Assembly (NCBI RefSeq): GCF_018614955.1
Contig: NZ_JAGGNV010000015.1
Location: 62,001-126,000 of the forward strand
Length of the DNA: 64,000 bases
Source: Variovorax paradoxus
GTDB taxonomy: Bacteria; Pseudomonadota; Gammaproteobacteria; Burkholderiales; Burkholderiaceae_C
Direction of reading: 5' to 3'
Shown: in pieces, positions 3,066 to 33,149 of the stretch
How the letters are laid out: every line of letters starts with the position of its first letter
Position numbering within the stretch: position 1 is the first letter of the stretch
Notes under the pieces: model-generated
Databases searched by the model: none
What the model was told of the DNA's origin: nothing
Seen by the model: only the letters and a program-made list of their open reading frames with translations
Program-made: the position numbers and the translations under genes

Positions 3066-3896
3066 ATGCCATGGCACGCGCGACTAGACCTCGCCTACAA
3101 CCTAGAACATCAGCGCAGCGTCGCCCGCTTTCGCCATGAAGGCCCGCTGCGCATCCTGCAAAGCCTCTACCCCGAAGGCGACGCGGTCTGCCACAACGTG
3201 CTGGTGCATCCGCCCGGCGGGCTGGTGGGCGGCGACACGCTGGACATCGCGGTGCGCGCCGCGGCGGGCAGCCACGGGCTCATCACCACGCCGGGCGCCA
3301 CGCGCTTCTACCGCTCAGAGGGCGAACTCGCGCTGCAGCGCACCGAGCTCGCGCTCGAGGCCGGCGCGCGGCTCGAATGGCTGCCGCTCGAAGCGATCTG
3401 CTACAGCGGCTGCCGCGCCGAGAACCGGCTGACCCTGCGCGTCGCCGACGGCGCGGAGCTGATCGGCTGGGACGTGACGGCGCTGGGCCTGCCCGGCGCC
3501 GGCAAGCCTTTCGAGCTCGGCACGCTGCAACAGCACATCGAAGTGCCGGGCGTGTGGCTGGAGCGCGGCCGCATCGATGCGGCCGACACTCGCCTGCTGC
3601 AGAGCCCGATCGGCCTGGCGGGACACCGCTGCATCGCGTCGATCTTCTTCGTCGCGGGTTCACCGATCGCGCGTGCGCGGCGCGACGCGGCGCTCGAGGT
3701 CGCGCGCGCGCTGATCGATGCGCACGGCCTGCGCGAGAGCGCCGGCGCGACCAGCCCGCATGCCGAAATCATCGTCCTGCGCGCGCTCGCACCCGTGGTC
3801 GAACCGGCCATGCAGCTGCTGCGGCAGGTGTGGCAGGCATGGCGCGCCGAGCTCTGGCACATGACGGGCACGCCGCCGCGCATCTGGGCGATGTAG
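3066..3896 (+). CDS. ureD: Urease accessory protein UreD (UreH)
   Basis: A 276-residue cytoplasmic scaffold that, with UreF and UreG, loads nickel and carbonates the active-site lysine of urease. Family marks are the N-terminal G-P-L-R-I-L-Q-S-L-Y-P-E-G block, the P-P-G-G-L-V-G-G-D-T-L signature around residues 49-59, the T-T-P-G-A-T-R-F-Y-R block, and the W-L-P-L-E-A-I-C-Y motif. Length is normal. Unusually, no ureA, ureB, ureC, ureE, ureF or ureG follows: the next gene is an unrelated MFS transporter. The urea importer lies 11.6 kb away on the other strand. Either the urease structural genes lie outside the window or the locus has been rearranged. Confidence 0.9.
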   Translation: MPWHARLDLAYNLEHQRSVARFRHEGPLRILQSLYPEGDAVCHNVLVHPPGGLVGGDTLDIAVRAAAGSHGLITTPGATRFYRSEGELALQRTELALEAGARLEWLPLEAICYSGCRAENRLTLRVADGAELIGWDVTALGLPGAGKPFELGTLQQHIEVPGVWLERGRIDAADTRLLQSPIGLAGHRCIASIFFVAGSPIARARRDAALEVARALIDAHGLRESAGATSPHAEIIVLRALAPVVEPAMQLLRQVWQAWRAELWHMTGTPPRIWAM

Positions 3897-3946: not shown

Positions 3947-5422
3947 ATGCAACAACAAAGCACGACCCCGGCCGGCAGCGACATCCCGGCCCGTCTCGAC
4001 CGCCTGCCCTGGTCGCGCTGGCACTGGCGCGTGGTGATCGCGCTCGGCGTGGCCTGGGTGCTCGACGGTCTCGAGGTCACGCTGGTGGGCTCGATCGGCG
4101 GCGTGCTCGAGCGGCCCGACACGCTGGGCTTGAGCGCCGCGCAGATCGGCTGGTCGGGCTCGCTCTACGTCGGCGGCGCGGTGATCGGCGCGCTGCTCTT
4201 CGGCCGGCTGACCGACCGGCTGGGCCGCAAGAAGCTGTTCCTCATCACGCTCGCGGTCTATGCGCTGGCCACGCTGGCGACCGCCTTCTCGCCCGACTTC
4301 GCCTTCTTCGCGCTGTGCCGCTTTCTCACCGGCCTGGGTATCGGCGGCGAGTACGCGGCCATCAACTCGGCCATCGACGAGCTGATTCCGGCGCGCGTGC
4401 GCGGGCGCGTGAACCTGGCCATCAATGGCAGCTTCTGGGTCGGCGCGGCGCTCGGCGCCGGGCTGAGCCTGTGGCTGCTCGATCCGCAGGTGCTGGGCCC
4501 TGTGTGGGGCTGGCGGGCCGGCTTCGGGCTCGGTGCACTGCTCGCAGTGGCGATCCTGCTGGTGCGGCGCAACGTGCCCGAGAGCCCGCGCTGGCTGATG
4601 GCGCATGGCCGGGCCGAAGAGGCCGAACTCATCGTTGCGGGCATCGAGGCCGAGATCGAGGCGCAGCAGGGTCCGCTGCCGCGCGCCGTGGGCCGGGTGC
4701 ACTTCGGCGGCCGCGCAAGCCCCGGCTGGCGCGAGGTCGCGCACGTGCTGCTCTCGCGCTACCCGCAGCGCAGCATGGTGGCGCTGGCGCTGATGATCTC
4801 GCAGGCCTTCTTCTACAACGCGATCTTCTTCACCTACGCGCTGGTGCTGACGCGCTTTCACGGCGTGGCCGAGGGCAAGGTGGCGCTCTACATCTTTCCG
4901 TTCGCGCTCGGCAACGTGCTGGGGCCGCTGCTCTTGGGCCCGCTGTTCGATCGCGTGGGCCGGCGCCGCATGATCGCGCTGACCTATGTGCTCTCGGGCG
5001 TGGGGCTGGCGCTGACCGGCTGGGCCTTCATGCAGGGCTGGCTCGATGCGCGCAGCCAGGCACTGTGCTGGTCGGCGGTGTTCTTTCTCGCATCGGCGGC
5101 GGCCAGCTCGGCCTACCTCACGGTGAGCGAGGTGTTCCCGCTCGAGATGCGCGCGATCGCGATCGCGATCTTCTATGCCGTGGGCACCGGGGCCGGCGGC
5201 TTCGTGGCGCCGGTGCTGTTCGGCGCCTTGATCGAAACCGGCAACCGCGGCGCCGTGGCCATCGGCTATGCGATCGGCGCGGCGCTCGTCATCGTGGCCG
5301 GGCTGCTCGCGCTGCGCTGGGCGGTGGATGCGGAGCGCAGGCCGCTCGAGGACGTGGCGCCGCCGCTCGGATTGCATACGGACGGCGACGCCGCCGCCAT
5401 CACTCGACAAGAGCGCGCTTGA
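3947..5422 (+). CDS. MFS transporter, sugar/aromatic acid:H+ symporter type
   Basis: A 491-residue inner-membrane secondary transporter with 12 predicted hydrophobic spans. The loop after span 2 carries the MFS motif G-R-L-T-D-R-L-G-R-K-K, repeated in the second half as F-D-R-V-G-R-R-R. The span-4 region G-I-G-G-E-Y-A-A and the P-E-S-P-R-W motif at the end of the first half place it with metabolite:H+ symporters (sugar porter and aromatic acid groups). The central cytoplasmic loop is Glu-rich. The gene starts 50 bases after ureD. Its 3' end overlaps the convergent GntR gene by 23 bases. It may import the substrate of the neighbouring catabolic genes, but nothing proves it. Confidence 0.85.
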   Translation: MQQQSTTPAGSDIPARLDRLPWSRWHWRVVIALGVAWVLDGLEVTLVGSIGGVLERPDTLGLSAAQIGWSGSLYVGGAVIGALLFGRLTDRLGRKKLFLITLAVYALATLATAFSPDFAFFALCRFLTGLGIGGEYAAINSAIDELIPARVRGRVNLAINGSFWVGAALGAGLSLWLLDPQVLGPVWGWRAGFGLGALLAVAILLVRRNVPESPRWLMAHGRAEEAELIVAGIEAEIEAQQGPLPRAVGRVHFGGRASPGWREVAHVLLSRYPQRSMVALALMISQAFFYNAIFFTYALVLTRFHGVAEGKVALYIFPFALGNVLGPLLLGPLFDRVGRRRMIALTYVLSGVGLALTGWAFMQGWLDARSQALCWSAVFFLASAAASSAYLTVSEVFPLEMRAIAIAIFYAVGTGAGGFVAPVLFGALIETGNRGAVAIGYAIGAALVIVAGLLALRWAVDAERRPLEDVAPPLGLHTDGDAAAITRQERA

Positions 5423-6107
5423 CGTCTTCCTGCAGGCTGCGCAGGTGTTCGCGCATCGCCGTCCTGGCCCGCTCCGGATCCCGGGCGCGCAGCGCGCGGA
5501 CGATCTCGCCGTGCTCGTCGTGGTTCTCGCGCTGCCGATGCAGCGGACTGTGCAGGCGGAACAGCCGCGCATTCACGCGCAGTTCCTCCACCAGCCGCGG
5601 GAACACCACGTTGCCGCTGGCGGTGGCGATCAGCAGATGGAAGCGGTCGTCGAAGTGCCAGTGCTCGGTTTCGTTGTGCTCGCCGCTGTCGAGCGCGCGG
5701 ATGTCCGCCTCGAGCGTGTCGATCTCCGCATCCGTGATCTTGCCGACGGCGAGCGCGATGGCCTCGCACTCGATCACCTCGCGCGCCCGCATGCAGTCGA
5801 AGTATTCCTTGGTGCCCAGCGCGCGCACGGCATAGGAGCGCGCGTCGCGCCGCACCAGCAGCCCCTCGCCGGCCAGGCGCACCAGCGCTTCGCGCATCGG
5901 CGTGCGCGAGATGCGCAGGTCTTCGGCCAGGCGCGCTTCCTGCAGCGGGCTGCCGGCCGAGATCTGGCGGTCGAGGATCAGCGTGCGCAACCGTTCGTAG
6001 GCCTGCTCGGCAAGGCTGGCGGAGCGCACCTCGAGCGGTGCGATCGTGATGGTGGCGGGTTGCGCCGGACTGGGGAGGCTTGGCATGCGAGAGGAGGCTG
6101 ATTCCAC
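5400..6107 (-). CDS. GntR family transcriptional regulator, FCD (FadR C-terminal domain) subfamily
   Basis: A 235-residue DNA-binding regulator. Residues about 30-95 form the GntR winged helix (A-Y-E-R-L-R-T-L-I-L, then the recognition helix R-I-S-R-T-P-M-R-E-A-L-V-R-L). Residues about 105-225 form the all-alpha FCD domain, with histidines and acidic residues of the usual metal/effector pocket (D-x-x-F-H and a late H-x-x-I-V). FCD regulators typically repress catabolic genes until bound by an organic acid or amino-acid derivative. It lies immediately downstream of the hydantoinase gene on the same strand. FCD regulators often bind palindromes containing GTATAC, and such a palindrome lies at 10209-10235. 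I infer this protein is its ligand. Confidence 0.88.
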   Translation of the reverse strand: MESASSRMPSLPSPAQPATITIAPLEVRSASLAEQAYERLRTLILDRQISAGSPLQEARLAEDLRISRTPMREALVRLAGEGLLVRRDARSYAVRALGTKEYFDCMRAREVIECEAIALAVGKITDAEIDTLEADIRALDSGEHNETEHWHFDDRFHLLIATASGNVVFPRLVEELRVNARLFRLHSPLHRQRENHDEHGEIVRALRARDPERARTAMREHLRSLQEDVKRALVE

Positions 6108-6157: not shown

Positions 6158-7612
6158 TCACAGCCACTTGTCCAACGGGTTGCCGTCGTTCGGCGCGCGC
6201 GGCCGCAGGCAGGGCTGGAAGCGGCCCGAGCCGGCCTCGGCCGAGAACACACCGTCCTGCCAGACCACGCGCCCACGCGAGAGCGTGACGCCGGGCCAGG
6301 CACGCAGCTGCATGCCTTCGTAAGGCGTGTAGTCGGCCGCGTGATGGAGCATGTCGTTGGAGATCCGCTTCTCCTGCCCCGGGCCGAAGACGTCCCACAC
6401 CACGAAGTCGGCATCGCTGCCGACCGCGATCGTTCCCTTCGTCGGGTACAGGCCATAGAGGCGCGCCGGGTTGGTGGAGGTGAGCTCGACGAAGCGATGG
6501 ATGTCGATGCGGCCCGCGAGCACGCCTTCGCTCATCAGCAGCGGCAGGCGCGTCTCCACGCCCGGAATGCCGTTGGGGATGCGGTCGAAGGAAGGCTGAT
6601 CGCCGGCGACGCGCTTGCCGTCGGCGCCGTTGATGTTGAAGGGTGCGTGGTCGGACGAGAAGATGGTGAAGAGCCCGCTCGCGAGCCCGTTCCAGATGAA
6701 CTGCTGATTGGCCTTGTCGCGCGGCGGCGGACTGCAGATGCAGCGCGCGCCGTGCATCGGGTCGTCGGGATCGATGCCCAGATCCTCGGCGCTCAGGAAC
6801 AGGTACTGCGGGCAGGTTTCCGCGTGGATGGGCAGCCCGCGCCCGCGCGCCCAGTGGATCTGCTCGACCGCCTCGCGGCCCGACACATGCACGATCAGGA
6901 TCGGCGTGTCGACCAGCTCGGCCAGCGCGATGGCCCGGTGCGTGGCCTCGCGCTCCACGGCCATCGGCCGCGAGCTGCCGTGGTAGCGCGGGGCCGTGAG
7001 GCCGGCATCGAGCAGCTGCTCGGTGAGCCAGGCGATGCAGTCGCTGTTCTCGGCGTGGATCATGGTCATCGCGCCATGCCGGCGCGCGACCGCGAGCACC
7101 TCGATGAGCTGCCGGTCGTTCAGCTTCAGATCGTCGTAGGTCATGTAAATCTTGAAGGAGGTGTAGCCCTTCTCGATCAATGCCGGGAGTTCGCGCTGCG
7201 TCACGTCCTTGGTGGCGTCGGCGACGATCAGGTGGAAGGCGTAGTCGATCACCGCCTTGCCCTCGGCGCGCCGGTGGTAGTCGTCGACCGCTTCCTGGAT
7301 GCTGCGCCCCTTCTGCTGGGTGGCGAAGGGCAGCACGGTCGTGGTGCCGCCGCAGGCGGCGGAGCGCGTGCCGGTGAAGAAGTCGTCGGCGAAACGCGAG
7401 CCGTCGCTGGTCGGCTGGTCGAAATGGCAGTGGCCGTCGACGCCGCCGGGCGTGACCAGGCGGCCGGCCGCGTCGATCTCGCGCGCTGCAGCGGCATCGA
7501 GTCCCTGCGCGATGGCGTAGATGCGGCCGTCGCGCACGCCGATGTCGGCGCGGTAGCGGTCGCCGACGGTGGCGATGTCGGCATTGCGAAGGATCAGGTC
7601 GTAGCTGCTCAT
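6158..7612 (-). CDS. D-hydantoinase/dihydropyrimidinase family amidohydrolase
   Basis: A 484-residue metal-dependent cyclic amidohydrolase that opens hydantoins, dihydropyrimidines or related cyclic imides. The full binuclear site is present: His61-x-His63 after the G-G-V-D-G strand, the carboxylated lysine at Lys154 (S-F-K-I-Y-M-T-Y), His186, His242 and Asp321 (S-S-D-H-A-P-F). Length matches D-hydantoinases and phenylhydantoinases. The start at 7612 is preceded by GGAG. The gene is first downstream of an ABC permease (13 bases) and belongs to a minus-strand operon with a binding protein and a DHDPS-family lyase. No recognisable N-carbamoyl-amino-acid amidase is present, although an M20 hydrolase lies across the divergent promoter. 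The true substrate is unknown. Confidence 0.88.
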   Translation of the reverse strand: MSSYDLILRNADIATVGDRYRADIGVRDGRIYAIAQGLDAAAAREIDAAGRLVTPGGVDGHCHFDQPTSDGSRFADDFFTGTRSAACGGTTTVLPFATQQKGRSIQEAVDDYHRRAEGKAVIDYAFHLIVADATKDVTQRELPALIEKGYTSFKIYMTYDDLKLNDRQLIEVLAVARRHGAMTMIHAENSDCIAWLTEQLLDAGLTAPRYHGSSRPMAVEREATHRAIALAELVDTPILIVHVSGREAVEQIHWARGRGLPIHAETCPQYLFLSAEDLGIDPDDPMHGARCICSPPPRDKANQQFIWNGLASGLFTIFSSDHAPFNINGADGKRVAGDQPSFDRIPNGIPGVETRLPLLMSEGVLAGRIDIHRFVELTSTNPARLYGLYPTKGTIAVGSDADFVVWDVFGPGQEKRISNDMLHHAADYTPYEGMQLRAWPGVTLSRGRVVWQDGVFSAEAGSGRFQPCLRPRAPNDGNPLDKWL

Positions 7613-7625
7613 GGGAGGTCTCCGG

Positions 7626-8345
7626 CTAGCGCTGCTCGAGCACGACGTCGGCGGCCACGACCGGCGCGCTCGCGTTGCCGTAGGCCCGGCCGTAGTGGCG
7701 CTCGATGCGGCGCTGGACGAAGTCCCACGCGGTGGTCATCAGCAGATAGTAGATGGCGGCGACGAGGAAGAGCTCGAGCACCATGAACTTCTCCTGGATC
7801 AGCACCTGCGTGCGGCGCAGCAGCTCCTCCATCGAGATCACCGAGGTGATCGAAGTGGTCTTGAGCAGGCCGTTGATGCTGTTGCCCAGTGTCGGGATGA
7901 TGAGCCGCATCGCCTGCGGCATGACGATGTAGCGCATGGTCTGCGCGTTGCTGAAGCCGACGGCGCGCGCCGCGTTGGTCTGGCCCACCGGCACCGACTG
8001 GATGCCGCCGCGCACGATCTCCGCGAGGTAGGCCGCTTCATTGAGGATCAGGCCGAGCAGCGCCGACTCGATCACCGACAGCTTGAGCCCGAGCTGCGGC
8101 AGGCCGGTGTAGATGATGATCAGCTGCACCAGCAGCGGCGTGCCGCGGAACACCCAGATATAGAAGTGCGCCGGCCCGGTCAGCCAGCGCTGGCTCGACA
8201 GCCGGGCCAAGGCCAGCGCGCATCCGAGGACCAGCCCGCCGGCGATCGCCGCGAGCGTGAGCCACAGCGTGGTCACGGCGCCGCTCAGGATGTACGGATT
8301 GAACAGATAGTCGGCGAACCCCGACCAGTTCCAGCCTTGTCCCAT
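7626..8345 (-). CDS. Polar amino-acid type ABC transporter permease (HisM/GlnP family)
   Basis: A 239-residue inner-membrane permease with about five hydrophobic spans. The cytoplasmic EAA loop reads E-I-V-R-G-G-I-Q-S-V-P-V-G-Q-T-N-A-A-R-A-V-G, the contact surface for an ATPase. The early block F-R-G-T-P-L-L-V-Q is characteristic of importers for histidine, glutamine, opines and similar polar amines. It lies 36 bases after the binding-protein gene and 13 before the hydantoinase. Two features are odd: there is only one permease gene, so it must work as a homodimer or recruit another permease, and no ATP-binding subunit is encoded in this operon. Confidence 0.87.
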   Translation of the reverse strand: MGQGWNWSGFADYLFNPYILSGAVTTLWLTLAAIAGGLVLGCALALARLSSQRWLTGPAHFYIWVFRGTPLLVQLIIIYTGLPQLGLKLSVIESALLGLILNEAAYLAEIVRGGIQSVPVGQTNAARAVGFSNAQTMRYIVMPQAMRLIIPTLGNSINGLLKTTSITSVISMEELLRRTQVLIQEKFMVLELFLVAAIYYLLMTTAWDFVQRRIERHYGRAYGNASAPVVAADVVLEQR

Positions 8346-8381: not shown

Positions 8382-9224
8382 TCAGCTCGCGGGGCCCTTG
8401 ACGGTCACGGCGCCGTCGATCGCCTTCACGCCGTACTGGTCGAACAGCTTCTGGAAGCTGCCGTCGGCCTTCATGTCGTTGAGCACCTTGGCCATCGCGA
8501 CCGCAAGTTCCTTGTTGCGCGTGGCCAGCGCCACCGGGGTCGGGAACAGGCCGTTCAGCACGCGGTCGAAATCGCCGCGCTTCTGGTATTCGGCGCCGGT
8601 GGAGTCGATCGACAGCGCCACCTCGACCTGGCCCGCGCGCAGCGACTGGAAGGCCATCGCGAAGTTCTCGAAGGTGCGGATGGTCATGCCCTTCATGCCC
8701 TTGTCGGTGAGCTGCTTGTCGAGCTCGCGCGCCTTGCGCTCCTCGAAGCCACCGATCTCCACGCCGATGCTCTTGCCCGAGAGGTCGTCGGGCTTGCTGA
8801 TCTTGAGCGGGTTGCCCTTGGCCGTGCTGATGCTGATGGCCTGGTCTTCGTACTGCAGCATCTGCATCAGCTTGGCGCGCTCCTCGGTGTAGAAGATGCC
8901 GGTGTTGATCACGTCCCAGCGCCCGGCCTGCAGGCCCGGGATCATGGCCGAGAACTCGATGCGCACGTATTCGGGCGTGAGGCACAGGCGCTTGGCGATG
9001 GCCTCGCCGAGCTCCACGCGCATGCCCTTGAGCGCGCCGGACTGGTCGACAAACTGCATCGGCGGCAAGGTCGGGTTGACCGACATCACCAGCGTGCCCT
9101 TCTTGACCAGGGCCGAGTCGGGCACCGGCGACTTGCAGGCCTGGGCCTGGGCTTGAGCTTGAACCCCGTCCATGCTGAAGACGAACAGAGCCAATGCCGA
9201 TGCGAGAGCGGGAAGCAATTTCAT
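8382..9224 (-). CDS. ABC transporter periplasmic substrate-binding protein, family 3 (amino-acid type)
   Basis: A 280-residue secreted binding protein. Residues 1 to about 25 are a Sec signal peptide (M-K-L-L, hydrophobic stretch, V-Q-A-Q-A). The mature part has the family 3 pattern: G-T-L-V-M-S-V near the start, the P-P-M-Q-F strand, a G-M-R-V-E-L-G-E-A-I helix, and D-L-S-G-K-S-I-G-V-E at the second lobe. Such proteins bind polar amino acids, opines or related amines. AAGGA lies upstream of the ATG at 9224, and an overlapping upstream reading frame lacks a better start. It is co-transcribed with the permease at 7626 and lies 50 bases after the DHDPS-family gene, so its ligand is probably the pathway substrate. 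Confidence 0.87.
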   Translation of the reverse strand: MKLLPALASALALFVFSMDGVQAQAQAQACKSPVPDSALVKKGTLVMSVNPTLPPMQFVDQSGALKGMRVELGEAIAKRLCLTPEYVRIEFSAMIPGLQAGRWDVINTGIFYTEERAKLMQMLQYEDQAISISTAKGNPLKISKPDDLSGKSIGVEIGGFEERKARELDKQLTDKGMKGMTIRTFENFAMAFQSLRAGQVEVALSIDSTGAEYQKRGDFDRVLNGLFPTPVALATRNKELAVAMAKVLNDMKADGSFQKLFDQYGVKAIDGAVTVKGPAS

Positions 9225-9274
9225 GATGGATTCCTTCAGGAGATGGACGAGACGAGAAAGGGGAAAGGGGGCGC

Positions 9275-10171
9275 TCAGGCGCGGATCGAGTCGAGCAGGC
9301 CGAGCTGGTCGAGCGCGCGCCGAAGATCGACCGCGTCGGCCTCGGGCAGCGGCAGGCGCGGCGCGCGGGGCTTGCCGACCGGCAGGCCCATCATCGAGAG
9401 GCCGTCCTTGGAAGCGGCGACGTAGCGGTGGCCGCCGACCCAGCGCACGATCGGCAGCATCTTCTTGTAGAGCGCAAGCGCGGCAGGCATGTCGCGTTCG
9501 TCGGCGACCAGCTCGAAGAGGCGCGCCGACATCTTCGGGATCAGGTTGGAGCACACCGCGACCCAGCCCTGGGCGCCGAGCCAGAAGGATTCGTAGCCGA
9601 GGATGCCGGCGAACACCGTCATGCGGTCGCCGCAGAGCTCGATGATGTCGCGCACGCGCGTGACCTCGAGCGTCGACTCCTTGATGTACTTGCAGTTGTC
9701 GATGCGCGAGAGGCGCGCCACCAGCTCGGGCTTGAGGTCGACGTTGGCCGTGGCCGGGTTGTTGTAGACCATGATCGGGATGCCGATCGCCTCGCCCACC
9801 TTGCGGTAGTGCGCGAACAGCTCGTCGTCGGTGGGCGTGCTGTAGAAGGGCGGAATGATCATGACGCCGTCGGCGCCCATGGTCTCGGCCTCGCGGCTCA
9901 ACCGCACGCACTCGTCGGTCCACTCCGCGCCGGTGCCGATCAGCACGGGCACGCGTTTTGCTGTCGTGCTCACGCAGGTTTCGATCACCAACTGTCTTTC
10001 CTCGGCCGTCAGCGACAGGAATTCGCCGGTGCTTCCCAAGGGGATGAGCCCGTGGATGCCCTCCTCGATCTGCCAGTCGACCAGCTTCTTCAGTGCCGGC
10101 ACGTCCACGTGCTTGCCGTCGGCGGTCATGGGGGTGATGAGCACCGTGTAGGTGCCTCGGAACGCTGTCAT
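9275..10171 (-). CDS. DHDPS/N-acetylneuraminate lyase family Schiff-base lyase or deaminase
   Basis: A 298-residue class I aldolase-type TIM barrel. The G-S-T-G-E loop (Ser47, Thr48), Tyr136 in M-V-Y-N-N-P and the Schiff-base lysine Lys164 in K-Y-I-K-E-S are all present. It is unlikely to be the housekeeping DapA: it lies in a catabolic operon, and the R138-type carboxylate-binding residue region after Tyr136 differs. Family members in catabolic clusters include the pyrroline-4-hydroxy-2-carboxylate deaminase of D-hydroxyproline breakdown, which works after an HcnABC/LhpBEF-type oxidase like the one encoded across the promoter here. It is the first gene of the minus-strand operon and starts 37 bases from the GTATAC palindrome. 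Confidence 0.85.
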   Translation of the reverse strand: MTAFRGTYTVLITPMTADGKHVDVPALKKLVDWQIEEGIHGLIPLGSTGEFLSLTAEERQLVIETCVSTTAKRVPVLIGTGAEWTDECVRLSREAETMGADGVMIIPPFYSTPTDDELFAHYRKVGEAIGIPIMVYNNPATANVDLKPELVARLSRIDNCKYIKESTLEVTRVRDIIELCGDRMTVFAGILGYESFWLGAQGWVAVCSNLIPKMSARLFELVADERDMPAALALYKKMLPIVRWVGGHRYVAASKDGLSMMGLPVGKPRAPRLPLPEADAVDLRRALDQLGLLDSIRA

Positions 10172-10208: not shown

Positions 10209-10235
10209 ATGTATACGTGTAGTATACGTATACAT
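10209..10235. promoter_or_regulatory. 27-bp near-perfect palindromic operator built of GTATAC units
   Basis: The 27 bases are symmetrical about 10222, and 12 of 13 base pairs match. The arms read ATGTATACGT and ACGTATACAT. GTATAC occurs three times, at 10211-10216, 10222-10227 and 10228-10233. It lies in the 76-bp gap between the divergent DHDPS-family gene and the fused oxidoreductase gene, in locally A/T-rich DNA. FCD-type GntR regulators commonly bind GTATAC-centred sites, so the regulator at 5400-6107 is the likely binder. It could control both directions at once. Confidence 0.75.
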
Positions 10236-10247
10236 TGAATCGCGTCA

Positions 10248-13202
10248 ATGCGGTTTTTGCTTCGATCTGCAATGAGCGCCAGACTGATCCACCCTTCCAT
10301 CACTGCGAGCGGGCGCCCCGTGCGCTTCTGGTACGACGGCCGGCCCATCGACGGCCTGGAGGGCGAGACCATTGCCGCCGCCCTGGCCGCCGGCGGCATC
10401 CGGCAGCTGCGCCACACCCGCGGCGGCGAGAACCGGGGCCTGTACTGCGGCATGGGCGCCTGCTTCGATTGCCTGGTGACGGTGGATGGCCAAGCCAGCC
10501 AGCGCGCCTGCCTCACCAAGGTGGCCGAGGGCCAGCAGGTGCGCTCCGCCATGCCGGCAGGAACGCCGGCGGAGCCGCTGCGCCCGCTCGCGTCCGAAGC
10601 GGCCGCCGAGCCGGCAGGCCGGCAGGTCGACCTGCTGGTCGTCGGCGCCGGGCCGGCGGGCCTGTCGGCGGCGCTCGCGGCGCGGCGTGCCGGGGCCGAG
10701 GTGCTCGTGCTCGACGAGCGCCTGCAGCCGGGCGGGCAGTTCTACAAGCCGCTGGCGCCCTCCCACCAGGCGACCGCGCCATCCGATCGCCAGTTCGCGG
10801 ATGGCCTCGCGCTCGAACAGCAAGTGCGCGCTGCAGGCGTCACCGTGCAGCAAGGCGCACAGGTGTGGGCCGCGTTCTCGCCCCGGGAGGTCGGCGCGCT
10901 GATCGACGGGCACGCGACCGTCATCGGCTGCCGGCAGCTCGTGATCGCACCGGGCGCCTACGAGCGCCCGGTGCCCTTCCCCGGCTGGACGCTGCCCGGC
11001 GTGATGAGCACCGGCGCCGCCCAGACGCTGGCGCGGGCCTACCGCGTGGCGCCGGGCCAAAGGGTGGTGATCGCGGGCAATGGGCCGCTCAACCTGCAGC
11101 TGGCCGCGGAACTGCTGGCGGGCGGCGCCGAAGTCGTCGCGGTGCTCGAATCGGCCGCGCGCCCTTCACCGCGCCAGTGGCGGCAACTGTGGACGGCCGC
11201 GCGCACCGCACCCGATCTGCTGCGCGACGGCTGGCGCTACATGCGGCAGCTGCGCGCCCATCGCGTGCCATTGTTGTGGGGCCATGCGGTGGTCTCAGCC
11301 GAAGGCGAGGACGAACTGCGCGCCGTGCAGGCCGCAGCAATCGATGGGCAATCGGCGGCGCTGCGTTTCGAGGCCGACACGCTGTGCCTGGGCTACGGCT
11401 TCATTCCTTCCACCGAACTGGCGCGCATGCTGGGCTGCGAGCACCGCACGGTGGATCGCCATCTCGGCTACCTCGCCACGGTGACGCGCGAAGACGGCGC
11501 CACCAGCCTGCCCGGCGTGTTCGTCGTGGGCGACGGCGCCGACCTGGGCGGCTCGCGCGTCGCTCTGGCGCGCGGGACGCTGGCCGGCACGGCGGCGGCA
11601 CGCAACCTGAACCTGCCCGCGCCCGAGCCGCGCAAGGAGCTCGGCCAATTGCGGCAGGCCGAGCGCTTCCAGCAGGCGCTGTGGTCGCTCTACCAGGCGC
11701 CGCCGGTCTCGCTCGCAACGACGCCCGACGACACGCTGCTGTGCCGCTGCGAGGAGATCAGCTTCGGTTCGGTGCGCGAGCAGATCCGCGCCGGCCGCGA
11801 CACGCTGGCCGCGCTCAAGCGCAACACGCGCCTGGGCATGGGGCGGTGCCAGGGGCGCTACTGCGCGGTGACTGCGGCCAAGCTCGTGGGCGAGCTGACG
11901 GGACGAGCGCCCGAGGTCGAGCAGTACTTCGCGCCGCGCCCGCCGGCCAAGCCGGTGCCGGCCGGTGCGCTGGGCTTCGAGAAGCCCGAATGGGGCGGCC
12001 ATAAGCCGGCCATCACCCCCAACCTCGCCCGGCCCGTGGAGCACACGCCCTTCGCACCGCTGCACACCGAGGTGCTGGTGATCGGCGCCGGCGTGCTCGG
12101 ATCGTGCCTCGGCTACTACCTGTCGAAGGCCGGCCGGGAGGTCACGGTGGTGGAGCGCGACGACATCAACCTGCAGGCCTCCGGCGCCAACGCGGGCAGC
12201 CTCCACGTGCAGCTGCTGTCCTTCGACTTCGGCGCCAAGGCGCAGGAAGGCGGCGGCCCGGCCGCGGCCACGCTGCCGCTCGGGCCGATGTCGGTGCGCC
12301 TCTGGCAGCAGATCGAGGCCGATTGCGGCGAGGACCTCGAGATCAAGATCACCGGCGGCCTGATGGTGGCCGACAGCGTGGCCGGCATGCGCTTCATCGA
12401 GGCCAAGGCCGCGCTGGAGCGCAGCCACGGCATCGATGCGCAGGTGATCGACGGCGCCGAGCTGCGCCGGCTCTCGCCCGCCCTTTCGGAACAGCTGCTG
12501 GGTGCGGAGCTGTGCCCGATGGAAGGCAAGATCAATCCGCTGCGCGCGACCTATGCGGTGGCGACGCGCGCGCAGCAGCAAGGCGCGCGCATGCTGCGCG
12601 GCTGCGACGTGCAGGACATCGAGCGGCTGCCCGGCGACCAGGCCGGCTTCATCGTCCACACCTCGCGCGGCACCATTCACGCGGGCCGCATCGTCAACGC
12701 GAGCGGCGCCTGGTCGAGCACGGTCGGCGACATGCTGGGCGTGAAGATCCCCGTCAAGGGCGCGCCACTGCAGATGATCGTCACCGAGCCGGCACCGCCG
12801 CTGGTCGACCACCTGATCGCACATGCCGACCGGCACCTGAGCCTCAAGCAGGCGGCCAGCGGCGGACTCATCATCGGCGGCGGCTGGACGGCCGCCTTTC
12901 ACGAAGGCATGCGCCTGAACCGCGCCGAGCGCGCCAGCATCGAGGGCAGCCTGTGGGTGGCGCGCCGGGTGCTTGCCGCCGTGAGCGGCCTGCACATGGT
13001 GCGCTGCTGGGCCGGCATGAACGTCAACATCGACGGCGCGCCGATCCTCGGCGAGGTGCCCGGCGTGCCCGGCTTCTACAACGCCGTCAGCTCCAACGGC
13101 TACACGCTGGCGCCCGTCGTCGCGCAGCTCGTGACCGACCTGATCGTGCACGGCAGCACCGAGATCGACATCACCCCGTTTCGCATCGACCGTTTTCTCT
13201 GA
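10248..13202 (+). CDS. Fused HcnA-HcnB-HcnC-like (opine/D-hydroxyproline dehydrogenase type) FAD and iron-sulfur oxidoreductase
   Basis: A 984-residue protein that joins what are normally three subunits. Residues about 15-95 are an HcnA-like [2Fe-2S] domain with Cys67, Cys72, Cys75 and Cys88. Residues about 125-475 are an HcnB-like FAD/NAD oxidoreductase (G-A-G-P-A-G at 133-138, a second G-N-G-P nucleotide fold near 284, G-D-G-A near 425). Residues about 495-545 are a BFD-like iron-sulfur cysteine cluster (C-R-C, later C-x4-C). After a Pro-rich linker, residues about 605-980 are a glycine/D-amino-acid oxidase domain (G-A-G-V-L-G-S). Relatives oxidise opines, D-hydroxyproline or glycine at the membrane. 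The substrate is unknown here. An alternative ATG at 10272 is plausible; neither start has a clear ribosome site. Confidence 0.85.
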   Translation: MRFLLRSAMSARLIHPSITASGRPVRFWYDGRPIDGLEGETIAAALAAGGIRQLRHTRGGENRGLYCGMGACFDCLVTVDGQASQRACLTKVAEGQQVRSAMPAGTPAEPLRPLASEAAAEPAGRQVDLLVVGAGPAGLSAALAARRAGAEVLVLDERLQPGGQFYKPLAPSHQATAPSDRQFADGLALEQQVRAAGVTVQQGAQVWAAFSPREVGALIDGHATVIGCRQLVIAPGAYERPVPFPGWTLPGVMSTGAAQTLARAYRVAPGQRVVIAGNGPLNLQLAAELLAGGAEVVAVLESAARPSPRQWRQLWTAARTAPDLLRDGWRYMRQLRAHRVPLLWGHAVVSAEGEDELRAVQAAAIDGQSAALRFEADTLCLGYGFIPSTELARMLGCEHRTVDRHLGYLATVTREDGATSLPGVFVVGDGADLGGSRVALARGTLAGTAAARNLNLPAPEPRKELGQLRQAERFQQALWSLYQAPPVSLATTPDDTLLCRCEEISFGSVREQIRAGRDTLAALKRNTRLGMGRCQGRYCAVTAAKLVGELTGRAPEVEQYFAPRPPAKPVPAGALGFEKPEWGGHKPAITPNLARPVEHTPFAPLHTEVLVIGAGVLGSCLGYYLSKAGREVTVVERDDINLQASGANAGSLHVQLLSFDFGAKAQEGGGPAAATLPLGPMSVRLWQQIEADCGEDLEIKITGGLMVADSVAGMRFIEAKAALERSHGIDAQVIDGAELRRLSPALSEQLLGAELCPMEGKINPLRATYAVATRAQQQGARMLRGCDVQDIERLPGDQAGFIVHTSRGTIHAGRIVNASGAWSSTVGDMLGVKIPVKGAPLQMIVTEPAPPLVDHLIAHADRHLSLKQAASGGLIIGGGWTAAFHEGMRLNRAERASIEGSLWVARRVLAAVSGLHMVRCWAGMNVNIDGAPILGEVPGVPGFYNAVSSNGYTLAPVVAQLVTDLIVHGSTEIDITPFRIDRFL

Positions 13203-13211
13203 CCTCCCACC

Positions 13212-14459
13212 ATGACCGACTCTTCTTCCGCGCGCGACACGCTGCGCCAGTTCATCGACACGCATTTCGACGAGCAGGTGCGCACGCTCGCGCAACTGGT
13301 GCAATGCCCTTCCGACAATCCGCCCGGCGACTGCGCGCCGCATGCGGAGCTCACTGCCCGCCTGCTCGAGGGCATGGATTTCGAGGTCGAAAGGCATGCG
13401 GTGCCGGCCGAATTCGCGGCGGCGCACGGCATGCGCAGCGTCACCAACCTGATCGTGCGCGAACGCTTCGGCGACGGTCCCGTGGTGGCGCTCAACGCCC
13501 ATGGCGACGTCGTGCCGCCGGGCTCGGGCTGGAGCGTCGACCCATATGGCGGCGAAGTGCGGGACGGCTGGCTCTACGGCCGCGGTGCAGCGGTGTCGAA
13601 GTCCGATTTCACGACCTATGCCTTTGCCCTGCGCGCGCTGAAGCAGCTGCACGCATCCGGCATGCCGTTGGCCGGCACGGTCGAACTGCACTTCACCTAC
13701 GACGAGGAAACCGGCGGCATGACCGGACCGGGCTGGATTCATTCGCAGGGCCTGAGCCGGCCCGACTACGTGCTCTCCGCCGCCTTCTCGCACCACGTGG
13801 TGGTGGCCCACAACGGCTGCCTGCACCTGGAGGTGACGGTGCGCGGCAAGTCGGCCCATGCGGCGCGGCCCGACACCGGCCACGATGCGATCGAGGCCGC
13901 GGCCACGCTCCTGCCCGCGCTCTACCGCTACCGCGATGCGTTGACCGGCCGGCCTTCGCAGACGCCCGGCATCACGCATCCGACGATGGTGGTCGGCCTC
14001 ATCGACGGCGGCATCAACACCAACGTGGTCGCCGACAGGCTCCTCCTGCGGATCGACCGGCGCATCGTTCCGGAGGAAGTCCCAGAAGCCGCGGAGGCCG
14101 AACTGCGCGGCGTGATCGAGGACGCCTGCTGCGCGCTGCCGGGCATCTCGGTAGAGATCAGGCAGATCCTGCTGGCCCAGCCGTTCGCACCGGCGCCCGG
14201 CGCCCAGGCGCTGGCCGATCTCGTGTGCTGCGAGGCCAGCGCCGTGATGGGCAAGCCCGTGACGCCGATCGGCGTGCCGCTCTATACCGATGCGCGCCTC
14301 TACAGCGAGGCCGGCATCCCCACCGTGATGTACGGCGCCGGCCCGCAGACGCTGCTCGAAGCCAACGGCCACCGCGCCGACGAGCGCGTTCCGCTGGACG
14401 AACTGCACAAGGCGACGCTGGTGGTCGCCAACACCCTGCTGCGGCTGCTGGCCCCCTGA
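13212..14459 (+). CDS. M20 family metallohydrolase (ArgE/DapE/carboxypeptidase G2-like) with altered metal-bridge motif
   Basis: A 415-residue amidohydrolase expected to remove an acyl, aminoacyl or carbamoyl group from an amino acid. His97-x-Asp99 in the N-A-H-G-D-V-V-P-P block and the catalytic pair Glu165-Glu166 (D-E-E-T-G-G) are present, as is the dimerisation domain (G-K-S-A-H-A-A-R-P). In most family members the second motif is G-R-G-x-x-D-x-K, whose Asp bridges the two metals. Here it reads Gly123-Arg-Gly-Ala-Ala-Val128-Ser-Lys, so Val replaces that Asp, with an Asp three residues later. It starts 9 bases after the fused oxidoreductase gene and is surely co-transcribed with it. Confidence 0.85.
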   Translation: MTDSSSARDTLRQFIDTHFDEQVRTLAQLVQCPSDNPPGDCAPHAELTARLLEGMDFEVERHAVPAEFAAAHGMRSVTNLIVRERFGDGPVVALNAHGDVVPPGSGWSVDPYGGEVRDGWLYGRGAAVSKSDFTTYAFALRALKQLHASGMPLAGTVELHFTYDEETGGMTGPGWIHSQGLSRPDYVLSAAFSHHVVVAHNGCLHLEVTVRGKSAHAARPDTGHDAIEAAATLLPALYRYRDALTGRPSQTPGITHPTMVVGLIDGGINTNVVADRLLLRIDRRIVPEEVPEAAEAELRGVIEDACCALPGISVEIRQILLAQPFAPAPGAQALADLVCCEASAVMGKPVTPIGVPLYTDARLYSEAGIPTVMYGAGPQTLLEANGHRADERVPLDELHKATLVVANTLLRLLAP

Positions 14460-14462
14460 ACT

Positions 14463-15407
14463 TCAGTGCTGCGTGGTCGGCCGCCCAGCCTCCACCCAGG
14501 CTTCGAGCCCGCCGGCGAGCGGCCGCGCGCGCACGAAGCCGCGCGCCATCAAGGCCTGCGCGGCCAATGCGGCCGACACCTCGTTGGGACAGTTGCAGTA
14601 CAGGATGATCTCGCGTCCCCTGTCCTCGAAGGGCAGTTCCCCTCGCCGCTGCTGCAAGGCCTTCAGCGGGATCGGCAGCGCGCCCGGGATGCGTCGCGGA
14701 TCGACCTGCACGCCGGCCTCGCCGCGCACGTCGACCACGAGCGGCGGTGCCTCGCCTTCCATCAGGGCAAGCAGTTCGTCGATGGTGGCGCGCGGCATCC
14801 TGGTGATGCGGAGCATGGCGCGGCGGCGCCACCAGCGCAGCGCCAGCATGGCCGCCAGCACGACCACCAGCGCCGCGGTCGCGGCGCTGCCGGTATTGGC
14901 CAGCGCCTCCAGCACCGCCTCGATCTGCTCGCGGAACAGCCAGCCCAGGCCCAGGAACACGCCGGCCCACAGCAGCGCGGCCGCCGTCTCGAAGACCAGG
15001 AAGCGCGGCGTGGACATGCCCAGCGCACCGGCCATCGGCGGCGCCACCACCGAGACGCCGGGCACGAACTTGGCGGCCACCAGCGACAGGCCGCCCCAGC
15101 GGCCGATCAGCGTTTCACTGCGCCGCACGCAGGAGTCCGGCGAGATCGAGATCTTGCAGAGCAGGCGCATGAAGCGGTAGCCGTAGGTGCGGCCGGTGTA
15201 GAACCAGACGCCGTCGCCCAGCACGTTGGCGAGCACCGCGGCCAGCACCATGGTTGCGAGGAGGGCCGGCTCCGCTACGGCCGCCAATCCGCCCGCCACC
15301 ACCAGCACTGGCGCTGCCGGCACCGGCAGCCCGACGCGGGCCGCGAAGCTCACGAGGAACACCACGGCGATCGCGTGGTCGACCATCAGAGCAATCAATT
15401 CCTGCAT
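14463..15407 (-). CDS. DedA family membrane protein fused to a C-terminal rhodanese domain
   Basis: A 314-residue two-part protein. Residues 1 to about 165 are a DedA/VTT domain with several membrane spans and the characteristic G-D-x-x-W-F-Y-x-G-R-x-Y-G and F-x-P-G-x-S blocks; DedA proteins act in membrane lipid (undecaprenyl phosphate) flipping. A further span covers about 172-192. Residues about 205-310 form a single rhodanese domain in the cytoplasm, with Cys271 (I-I-L-Y-C) at the sulfur-accepting position and the V-D-V-R-G strand. The gene lies between the M20 gene (convergent) and urtE. The link between membrane and sulfur chemistry is not understood. Confidence 0.85.
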   Translation of the reverse strand: MQELIALMVDHAIAVVFLVSFAARVGLPVPAAPVLVVAGGLAAVAEPALLATMVLAAVLANVLGDGVWFYTGRTYGYRFMRLLCKISISPDSCVRRSETLIGRWGGLSLVAAKFVPGVSVVAPPMAGALGMSTPRFLVFETAAALLWAGVFLGLGWLFREQIEAVLEALANTGSAATAALVVVLAAMLALRWWRRRAMLRITRMPRATIDELLALMEGEAPPLVVDVRGEAGVQVDPRRIPGALPIPLKALQQRRGELPFEDRGREIILYCNCPNEVSAALAAQALMARGFVRARPLAGGLEAWVEAGRPTTQH

Positions 15408-17019: not shown

Positions 17020-17023
<4 letters not shown>

Positions 17024-18231
17024 GCGCGGGCTCCCTTGGTTTCCACCGCCAGCGGCGCAAGCGCAGAAGGCTCGACGCCCTGACCGGCGGCCATGGCGCG
17101 CTGCCCCTCGCGCCGGCCTTCGCTCGGCGCCTTCTCCCTGGACGCCCATTTCTTGATCAAGCCCACGATGCCGTTCGGCAGAAACAGCGTGACAGCAATG
17201 AAGAGGGCCCCGAGGAAGTAGAGCCAGTACTCGGGGTAGGCGACCGTGAGCCAGCTCTTGGCGCCGTTGACGATGAAGGCGCCGAGGATCGGGCCGATCA
17301 GCGTGGCGCGGCCGCCGACCGCGGCCCAGATCGCGATCTCGATCGAGTTGGCGGCGCTCATCTCGCCGGGATTGATGATGCCCACCTGCGGCACGTAGAG
17401 CGCGCCGGCCACGCCGCACATGACGGCCGAGATGACCCAGGTCGTGAGCTTGTAGGGCAGCGGGTTGTAGCCCGAGAACATCACGCGCGATTCGGCATCG
17501 CGAATCGCCTGCAGCACGCGGCCGAACTTGCTCGCGATCAGCCATCTGGCGAACAGGAAGAAGCCGAGCAGCGTGAGGCCGGTGAGCGCGAAGAGGGTCA
17601 TGCGCATCTCCTGCGTCGCGATCGGCACGCCGAGGATGCGCTTGAAGTCGGTAAAGCCGTTGTTGCCGCCGAAGCCGGTCTCGTTGCGGAAGAACAGCAG
17701 CATCGCCGCGAAGGTCATGGCCTGCGTGATGATCGAGAAGTACACGCCCTTGATGCGCGAGCGGAAGGCGAAGAACCCGAACACGAAGGCGATCAGGCCC
17801 GGCACCGCGACGATCAGCACCAGCGTGGCGACGAAGCTGTCGCTGAAGGTCCAGTGCCAGGGCAGCGTCTTCCAGTCGAGGAAGACCATGAAGTCCGGCA
17901 GGTCGCTCTTGTAGTTGCCGTCGCGGCCGATCTGGCGCATGAGGTACATGCCCATCATGTAGCCGCCCAATGCGAAGAAAAGGCCGTGGCCGAGAGACAG
18001 GATGCCGGTGTAGCCCCAGATCAGGTCCATGGCCAGCGCGCAGATGGCGTAGCACATGATCTTGCCGACGAGCGCCACCGCGTAGTCGCTCATGTGAAGC
18101 GGGCTGCCCGCGGGCACCAGCAGGTTGAGCACCGGCGCCAGCGCGCAGACGGCGATCAGCGCGACGAAGAAGGCGGTCCAGCCCTTGCCGCTCAGGAGCG
18201 GGCCCTTGGAAGGAAGTGCGACTCGGGTCAT
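17020..18231 (-). CDS. urtC: Urea ABC transporter permease UrtC
   Basis: A 403-residue LivM-type inner-membrane permease with about ten hydrophobic spans. The central block G-F-G-G-N-N-G-F-T-D-F and the V-G-G-R-A-T-L-I-G-P-I-L-G-A loop near the C-terminal third are UrtC marks. A basic, hydrophilic tail of about 40 residues ends the protein. It overlaps the upstream urtB gene by four bases and the downstream urtD gene by four, so urtB, urtC and urtD are translated as a coupled unit. Confidence 0.92.
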
Positions 18232-31712: not shown

Positions 31713-33149
31713 TTAGCCCACGGCGCCCGAAATGCGCGTCTGGGCCTGCGATTCGTCGGCGTCGTGCAAGGCGACCCGGAATACGCTTCCCCTGCCCAGC
31801 CTGGAGCGCACGCTGACGGGATGCCCGAGCGCATGCGACAGCCGCGCCACGATGGCCAGGCCCAGGCCGAAGCCGTCGGAGGTGCCGGCATGGTCGGCCA
31901 CCTTGTAGAACTCCAGGAACACGTCGCGCAAGTGCTCGCGCGCGATGCCGATGCCGGTGTCCCACACCTCCACGCGCAGGCCGTCGCGCGTGTGCCGCGA
32001 GGCCAGCAGGACGCCGCCCTCGGCGGTGTACTTGATCGCGTTGGCCAGCAGGTTGCCGATCATGCGGCGCACGCGGATCGGGTCGGTCAGCACGGCGCCG
32101 GAACTCACATGCATGCGAAAGGTCAATCCCTTGGCCTCGGCCACCGGTCGGTACTGCAGCTCGAGGTCGTGCAGCAGCTGGGCGACGTCCACCCGCTCGA
32201 TGTGCAGCCGCACCTGGCCCGAATCGATGCGTGCGAGGTCGAACAGCGAATCGAAGAGCGCATTGACCGCGTGGGTGGCACGCACGATCTTGGGTGCGAT
32301 CTCGGCCACCAGTTCAGGCTCGTTGCGCAGCCAGTCGGCATAGAGCGAGAGCGCCAGCACGGGCTGGCGCATGTCGTGCGCGGCGCTCGCCAGAAAGCGG
32401 TTCTTCATCGCCACCGCCGACACCGCCGCCTGCCGCTGCTGCGTGAGCGAGTTGATCAGGATGTGGTTGTGGAACAGCAGCTCGAAGCTGTTGCGCGCCG
32501 TCTCGTGGATGCGCCGCCCCGCGCGCAGCAGCAGCCACCAGTGCAGGCCCGGCAGCAGCAGGAAGCCGTAGTGGAAGTGCGGCCGTTCGAACTTGAGCTC
32601 GATCACGCGGAAGACGATCGCCAGCAGCATCGTGACGAACAGCGTGTTGACGTAGCGCTTGAGCAGCGGCGGATGCAGCGCCAGTCCGTTGAGCGGAAAG
32701 GTCGCCACCCCGGCGACGATCAGCCAGCTCATGAACTGGTTCACCAGCGGCGTGCGCTCGAAGAAGATCAGGATCGACAGGCCCCAGGCGAAGGCGCTGG
32801 CGCTCCAGAGAAAGCGGTAGCGCTCGACGAAGTACTGCTGGGCGGCCGAGTCGCGGTCGGCGTAGTGCCGGCCGTAGAGCTGCTCGCCCCAGATGCGGCA
32901 AGCGGTGGCGCCGATGCCGATGGCGAGCCAGGCGAACAGCTGCCAGGGCGGCACGTGGCCCCAGCTCAGGCCGACCATGGCCGGCATCAGGGCCGCAGCC
33001 AGCAGGTACGAGCCGCGGGACGCCCGCATCAGGCTGCGGATCAGCTCGCCGCGCACCCACGGTTCGGCCTCGTCGGCGGATGCCGGTGCCGGAGTGAGGC
33101 TCGCAAAGGACGAGTTGCCCAAGCCTGCGAATGACGAATTACCCATCAT
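31713..33149 (-). CDS. Membrane sensor histidine kinase, hybrid-free
   Basis: A 478-residue kinase. Residues about 45-210 contain five or six hydrophobic spans forming an integral-membrane sensor. The dimerisation helix has the phosphorylated His258 in S-A-A-H-D-M-R-Q-P. The catalytic domain follows, with the N-box N-L-L-A-N-A-I-K-Y, the G1 box D-T-G-I-G-I and the G2 region G-L-G-L-A-I-V. The first 20 residues contain a near-exact tandem repeat (G-N-S-S-F-A). The ATG at 33149 is preceded by a purine-rich GGGAGAGG about 12 bases upstream. The stop codon lies at the shared terminator with the response regulator. Confidence 0.88.
   Translation of the reverse strand: MMGNSSFAGLGNSSFASLTPAPASADEAEPWVRGELIRSLMRASRGSYLLAAALMPAMVGLSWGHVPPWQLFAWLAIGIGATACRIWGEQLYGRHYADRDSAAQQYFVERYRFLWSASAFAWGLSILIFFERTPLVNQFMSWLIVAGVATFPLNGLALHPPLLKRYVNTLFVTMLLAIVFRVIELKFERPHFHYGFLLLPGLHWWLLLRAGRRIHETARNSFELLFHNHILINSLTQQRQAAVSAVAMKNRFLASAAHDMRQPVLALSLYADWLRNEPELVAEIAPKIVRATHAVNALFDSLFDLARIDSGQVRLHIERVDVAQLLHDLELQYRPVAEAKGLTFRMHVSSGAVLTDPIRVRRMIGNLLANAIKYTAEGGVLLASRHTRDGLRVEVWDTGIGIAREHLRDVFLEFYKVADHAGTSDGFGLGLAIVARLSHALGHPVSVRSRLGRGSVFRVALHDADESQAQTRISGAVG

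Follow-up and report, generated by a model that had tools for sequence, protein, structure and literature searches.

The window studied here is a stretch of 64,000 nt from Variovorax paradoxus (GCF_018614955.1, contig NZ_JAGGNV010000015.1, positions 62,001-126,000), in which one gene encodes, in a single chain, the gamma-, alpha- and beta-like parts of a flavin/[2Fe-2S] dehydrogenase. By its domains and motifs this fusion is a chain-fused variant of the known tripartite flavin/[2Fe-2S] amino-acid dehydrogenases, and it is probably itself a dehydrogenase. Its homologues indicate that the single-chain fusion is an established family of Alpha-, Beta- and Gammaproteobacteria, not a one-off. It seems reasonably probable to us that this single-chain gamma-alpha-beta enzyme performs the dehydrogenase step in a gene cassette catabolising a cyclic amide or ureide amino-acid derivative. 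The architecture, the cofactor motifs, the conserved linkage of the neighbouring genes and an operator-like site can be read in the sequence.

Architecture of the fused gene

The frame 10248-13202 (+) is open throughout its 984 codons, as an earlier note on this DNA had stated, and residue numbers throughout are counted from its codon 1. Translation more likely starts at Met9 (10272), where the Variovorax homologues begin (MSARL...). Every Pfam domain call on the fusion exceeds the curated cut-offs: Fer2_4 at residues 23-100, Pyr_redox_2 at 128-435, Fer2_BFD at 498-547, SO_alpha_A3 at 504-576 and DAO (D-amino-acid oxidase) at 609-965. The earlier note had proposed a [2Fe-2S] domain, an FAD/NAD oxidoreductase, a BFD-like cluster and a DAO domain in one chain, and hence a fusion of gamma-, alpha- and beta-like parts; the Pfam analysis bears out both the order and the fusion. 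The features of the gene are as follows.

10272..13202, plus strand: gamma-alpha-beta fused flavin/[2Fe-2S] dehydrogenase (frame, Pfam, genome scans, alignment; earlier start at 10248)
10314..10547, plus strand: Fer2_4 [2Fe-2S] domain, gamma-like, with Cys67/72/75/88 (Pfam; conserved in 71/71)
10629..11552, plus strand: Pyr_redox_2 domain of FAD/NAD type, alpha-like (Pfam; fold matches 1y56_A and 2gag_A)
11739..11975, plus strand: BFD-like [2Fe-2S] / SO_alpha_A3 region with Cys499/501/534/539 and an RPPxKPV-like alpha tail at its end (Pfam; alignment)
11976..12059, plus strand: linker joining the alpha-like and DAO parts, consensus PAGALxFEKPEWGGH... (consensus; low model confidence)
12072..13142, plus strand: DAO domain, beta-like, with the FAD site and the R919-x-W921 FMN motif (Pfam, alignment, fold matches; motif after PMC4575208)

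The "Pro-rich linker" of the earlier note has to be divided. Its RPPxKPV-like stretch is the C-terminal tail of the alpha part, found also on the separate alpha subunits compared, and the true linker of the fusions follows this tail with a PAGALxFEKPEWGGHxRAxTPN-like consensus, the FEKPEW piece being present in 52 of the 71 fused proteins aligned.

A real fusion and an established family

The entire protein was found in one frame, with no stops, in 17 of the 37 genomes of the genus Variovorax, the window's own included. In genome G010 the protein is split over two contig ends, and the other 19 gave no full-length match at E<=1e-60; the same scan of 24 genomes of other families gave no full-length match either. 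Among 398 genomes across the phylum, the complete three-part frame is present in four (G000, G032, G445 and G110), a fifth match (G395) holding the gamma-alpha part only. In the class of G445, 12 of 385 genomes match at E<=1e-80, three of them with full-length single frames (G445, G562, G714) and the remaining nine with genes that are split, partial or ended by a contig edge. The family of G110 has the fusion in 4 of 151 genomes. Named contigs, when scanned, yielded 72 loci, of which some are interrupted by contig ends; the hosts include Variovorax, Polaromonas, Rhodoferax, Pseudacidovorax, Xenophilus, Ramlibacter metagenome-assembled genomes, Azospirillum, Belnapia, Dankookia, Halomonas and Vreelandella. 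The fusion stands also on plasmid records of Rhizobium, Agrobacterium vitis and Aureimonas, several of the plasmid-borne copies having roots, nodules or grape as their source.

A sequencing or assembly error joining two adjacent genes into one frame is rejected as next to impossible, since independent genomes carry the same uninterrupted frame: intact single frames occur in the 17 genus genomes, in 70 loci of L028-L108 and in genomes outside the genus. Homologue searches across genomes, akin to the domain search that the earlier note had suggested as a check, have thus found three-part fusions in many proteobacteria. Its idea of a possible new dehydrogenase holds in so far as the fusion is real and probably a dehydrogenase; the enzyme belongs to a widespread family with two-gene relatives and is no one-off.

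Cofactor sites and predicted structure

Cofactor residues were read from the alignment of the 71 fused proteins. Cys67/72/75/88 of the Fer2 domain, which the earlier note had picked out, and Cys499/501/534/539 of the BFD-like region are invariant in all 71, as are both GxGxxG motifs (G133/G135/G138 and G613/G615/G618) and R919-x-W921. The R-x-W motif is the proposed FMN-binding motif of the opine, D-hydroxyproline and L-proline dehydrogenases, according to PMC4575208. The invariants specific to the family are His653, Gln655, Arg862, His863, Lys867, Gln868, Asn950 and Thr953, which we regard as candidate active-site residues; the Lys-Gln pair (Lys867, Gln868) recurs among some separate-subunit relatives.

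An AlphaFold2 model of the fusion, built with 20 alignment rows, has a mean local confidence (pLDDT) of 86.7 and a global score (pTM) of 0.86. The linker is modelled weakly, with pLDDT of 65 and 56 at model residues 571-590 (579-598 in the 984-codon numbering). The first half of the model matches the folds of 1y56_A and 2gag_A and the second those of 1y56_B and 1vrq_B. In the PDB, the top fold matches come from sarcosine oxidase (alpha and beta), L-proline dehydrogenase (alpha and beta) and glycine oxidase. For the DAO part, sequence and fold point to the beta subunits of L-proline dehydrogenase and sarcosine oxidase and to glycine oxidase as the closest solved relatives, and the earlier note's "HcnC-like" stays a suggestion. 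The whole architecture was not found in the PDB by sequence, each of the 59 matches spanning one half.

Comparison with known dehydrogenases and oxidases

The fusion has the features of the tripartite family (OpnDH, D-HypDH, L-ProDH), namely both Cys clusters, two ADP-binding motifs and RxW, except that its alpha, beta and gamma parts lie in one frame and are not separate subunits. According to Watanabe 2015 (PMC4575208), the opine dehydrogenase OdhA/OdhB/OdhC shares with it a beta subunit of the DAO superfamily with an FAD site, an alpha subunit with an FAD site and a [2Fe-2S] cluster, a gamma subunit with a [2Fe-2S] cluster, and the RxW FMN motif. It differs in being made of three subunits (alpha4beta4gamma4), whereas the fusion is one chain, and in its gene order, B-C-A, against the domain order gamma-alpha-beta of the fusion. 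The same source reports that the tripartite family exchanges subunits. As the earlier note supposed, fusing the parts may fix their stoichiometry and channel the electrons between them.

By sequence, the DAO part is matched best by the L-proline dehydrogenase of Pyrococcus horikoshii (1y56, PH1363 and its partner); the fold alignment gives 24% identity. This archaeal enzyme consists of two chains, both of which match the predicted halves of the fusion. Heterotetrameric sarcosine oxidase (2gag, 1vrq) shares the folds of its alpha N-terminal half and of its beta subunit with the fusion, and differs from it by the folate-binding domain, a family that does not appear in the fusion's Pfam list. An assignment as sarcosine oxidase alpha was rejected, TIGR01372 scoring 150.8 bits against a cut-off of 1164, with its best stretch at residues 125-576 only. 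The earlier worry that the gene would be misannotated in this way did not materialise, the four plasmid homologues inspected being named "FAD-dependent oxidoreductase".

No published description of the three-part architecture was found in the open-licence literature, searched by titles, abstracts and passages. The Pseudomonas pseudoalcaligenes papers sharing keywords were set aside, being about a cyanide (cio/nit) cluster (PMC8567248).

Gene cassette around the fusion

The neighbours of the fusion, on which the earlier note is silent, are the best clue to its function. It is surrounded by the following genes, whose conservation was counted in the window plus those of the 70 fused loci in L028-L108 that extend 5.5 kb or more on each flank (62, the other 8 being dropped; n=63). 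A neighbour was scored when tblastn matched it at E<=1e-10 no farther than 6.2 kb away.

9275..10171, minus strand: DHDPS-family Schiff-base lyase, divergent from the fusion (PF00701, 202 bits; 60/63 loci)
8382..9278, minus strand: family-3 solute-binding protein of an amino-acid type ABC importer (PF00497; 57/63 loci)
7626..8345, minus strand: ABC permease of polar amino-acid type (profile matches; 57/63 loci)
6158..7612, minus strand: D-hydantoinase / dihydropyrimidinase (PRK13404, TIGR02033; alignment to 4kqn; 54/63 loci)
5400..6107, minus strand: GntR/FCD transcriptional regulator (PF00392, PF07729)
13212..14459, plus strand: M20 (ArgE/DapE-like) deacylase, downstream of the fusion (PF01546; window-like M20 in 31/63)

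An ABC ATPase-like gene was counted in 46 of the 63 loci, a number that includes adjoining urea-transporter ATPases, and DUF3830 in 20. The hydantoinase scores 802.7 bits with PRK13404 (cut-off 647) and 534.2 with TIGR02033 (cut-off 393.25), as expected of a D-hydantoinase/dihydropyrimidinase, and its metal- and substrate-binding residues align with those of 4kqn. Since the 7-Mb genome of the window holds only two close hydantoinases and four weaker matches, the adjacency of one to the fusion is improbable by chance. The second close hydantoinase (C75) lies near an MFS transporter and KaiC/sensor-kinase-like genes, several neighbours having no match at E<=1e-30, and its surroundings show no clear pathway.

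The composition of the cassette varies among hosts. In annotated records of Azospirillum, A. vitis and Aureimonas the same set is joined by an ATPase and DUF3830, and Halomonas-type loci have a TRAP importer in place of the ABC genes, with EamA, hydantoinase and partly an allophanate-hydrolase C-domain-like protein. An isochorismatase-family protein stands near the fusion in L087. Window-like M20 and DUF3830 occur together in none of the 63 loci, L071 and L129 pairing DUF3830 with a diverged M20. We regard DUF3830 (PF12903) from its gene context as a candidate acyl/carbamoyl hydrolase; in the PDB it matches 3kop alone at E<=1 (E = 0.0051), and the literature search found no paper on it. Examples beside fusion genes are L100:3551-3967, L101:14134-14544, L102:14100-14516 and L129:2937-3353. 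An attempt to read the substrate from the relatives of the DHDPS-family lyase or the solute-binding protein failed, the PDB neighbours being mostly DapA-like and amino-acid-binding, respectively, among the best 60 of 147 and the best 60 of 80.

Besides these genes, the cassette is flanked by a UreD urease accessory gene (3066-3896) and by UrtC of a urea ABC transporter (17020-18231), and urt-like genes are close to the fusion in L028, L030, L031, L033, L039, L050 and L059 too; this may reflect chance or a nitrogen-scavenging island. Just downstream, on the strand opposite to M20 and the fusion, a DedA/VTT membrane domain is fused to a rhodanese domain (14463-15407). On a plasmid of a Comamonadaceae member (L148:8003-9891), two DHDPS-family genes stand side by side next to an amino-acid ABC ATPase, and one of the two shares 60% identity with the cassette lyase; no fusion dehydrogenase is annotated within about 9 kb. 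Elsewhere in the window, ARAGORN places a 92-base tRNA-Glu, possibly spurious, at 31986-32077 inside the minus-strand frame 31713-33149.

Divergent promoter

Between the fusion and the lyase gene lies a conserved motif, identified by genome pattern search and by comparison of homologue upstream regions.

10211..10227, no strand assigned: operator-like site GTATAC-N5-GTATAC in the divergent promoter

This is the sole exact match in the 7-Mb genome, one more place matching with one mismatch, and shuffles give an expectation of 0.01 matches in the window. Of 71 homologues, 52 have GTATAC in the 160 bp upstream of the fusion, the figure across the loci being 0.02 per 160 bp, and 44 have the complete 17-bp site. 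This divergent promoter is probably where the GntR/FCD regulator acts.

Proposed pathway and rival substrates

Taken together, the conserved neighbours are in agreement with the following sequence of events, in which we infer the reaction steps, their order, the role of the regulator and the substrate. The importer would take up a cyclic amide/ureide-type compound, the D-hydantoinase would open its ring, and an amide/acyl hydrolase would free the amino acid by deacylation or decarbamoylation, a step that would fall to M20 here and perhaps to DUF3830 or others elsewhere. The DAO domain would then bind the amino-acid-like substrate at FAD and oxidise its C-N bond to an imine. On their way to a respiratory acceptor, the electrons would pass an FMN bound between alpha and beta (R-x-W), both [2Fe-2S] sites and the second flavin. 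The product, imine or keto acid, would be deaminated or cleaved by the DHDPS-family Schiff-base lyase, a pairing with the dehydrogenase that resembles the D-hydroxyproline pathway.

Several observations weigh against this reading. The hydantoinase was not found within reach in 9 of the 63 loci and the DHDPS-family gene in 3, L083 and L097 being without both; the 63 loci are moreover related and not independent. L071 and L129 have a PTE-family hydrolase, the diverged M20 and DUF3830 with no hydantoinase found, and therefore the ring-opening step is not universal. In the window itself, no amino-acid-type ATPase was found beside the importer. Concerning the enzyme, the Arg of the GxRP motif of glycine oxidase, which has a role in substrate binding, is absent at residues 922-928 (0 of 71), where A-(G/A)-M-N-x-N-I-D prevails, so that the substrate may bind unusually, and the stretch containing NAGSLHxQL, a motif specific to the fused family, is poorly modelled (pLDDT 52-62, model residues 631-660). 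As for the promoter, a reversed control pattern is found at five places in the genome at up to one mismatch, against two for the operator pattern; position and conservation, not rarity, therefore carry the operator argument. GTATAC is also lacking in 19 of the 71 homologues, among them the Rhizobium, A. vitis, Aureimonas, Halomonas-type, Belnapia-type and Reyranella-type loci.

The pairing of dehydrogenase and lyase raises another explanation, in which the fusion acts as a D-hydroxyproline dehydrogenase within a hydroxyproline pathway. The DHDPS-family gene of the cassette may correspond to the Pyr4H2C deaminase, a DHDPS-family partner in the known pathway, and an amino-acid-type importer adjoins the fusion. 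A hydantoinase is not known to have a place in that pathway, and no aldehyde dehydrogenase stands among the identified cassette genes. The hydroxyproline epimerase family PF05544 was not found in the window genome (0/1), a search in which 3 of 14 control genomes gave a match, one above the cut-off; the canonical pathway is rejected on this absence. The enzyme itself does belong to the same superfamily as the known D-HypDH (PMC4575208), and overall we consider this explanation quite improbable.

Also unlikely, though deserving some weight, is that the fusion oxidises N-alkyl glycines or opine-like secondary amines, its neighbours (hydantoinase, M20, DUF3830 and others) scavenging conjugates and releasing the amine. 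The resemblance of the beta fold to L-proline dehydrogenase, glycine oxidase and sarcosine oxidase is consistent with such substrates, as are the plasmid-borne copies from roots, nodules or grape and the partner hydrolases that differ among lineages. Against it, the four separate-subunit sets inspected, one of them on a Ti plasmid, have no DHDPS or hydantoinase annotated nearby, RidA being present in three of the four.

Returning to the catabolism of a cyclic amide or ureide amino-acid derivative, it is conceivable, if a little short of probable, that the fusion, the DHDPS-family lyase and the D-hydantoinase form an undescribed pathway for a natural compound of this kind, with DUF3830 as an acyl/carbamoyl hydrolase replacing M20 in the same step. 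D-hydantoinases are an industrially used enzyme class, and such a pathway would, if true, give one of them a physiological role. As the cassette joins the oxidase, a D-hydantoinase and a DHDPS-family lyase, the natural substrate of the class becomes testable. The compact one-gene enzyme could further allow the electron path to be studied without reconstituting a complex.

Relatives and history of the fusion

Three states are found among the relatives: the parts are separate, gamma-alpha is fused with beta separate (L103, L104, L131, L132 and L135), or all are fused, the single chain being the fused end form of this series of three genes, gamma-alpha plus beta, and one chain. With the fusion the two-gene relatives share the G-S-(L/I)-H-x-Q motif of the beta part and, in four of five (not L103), a DHDPS-family neighbour. 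They differ in their C-terminal motif, mostly (F/V)P(W/Y)xGF(T/S)xGP or PGDAGYTLGP, whereas the fusions except L134 have SNG(Y/F)TL(A/G/S)P.

On the alpha and beta trees, the one-gene and two-gene forms cluster together, apart from the separate-subunit rows. The fused state takes at least two changes of state on the alpha tree and on the provisional beta tree, and the test does not reject the grouping of every fused alpha part into one clade (p-AU 0.43, or 0.31 when L134 is excluded). The trees are compatible with one origin or several, and with fusion or later fission. Genome G000 holds, in addition to its fusion, four more places (C95, C51, C115 and C40; L002-L008) with alpha-type and beta-type dehydrogenase genes, the beta parts of which differ.

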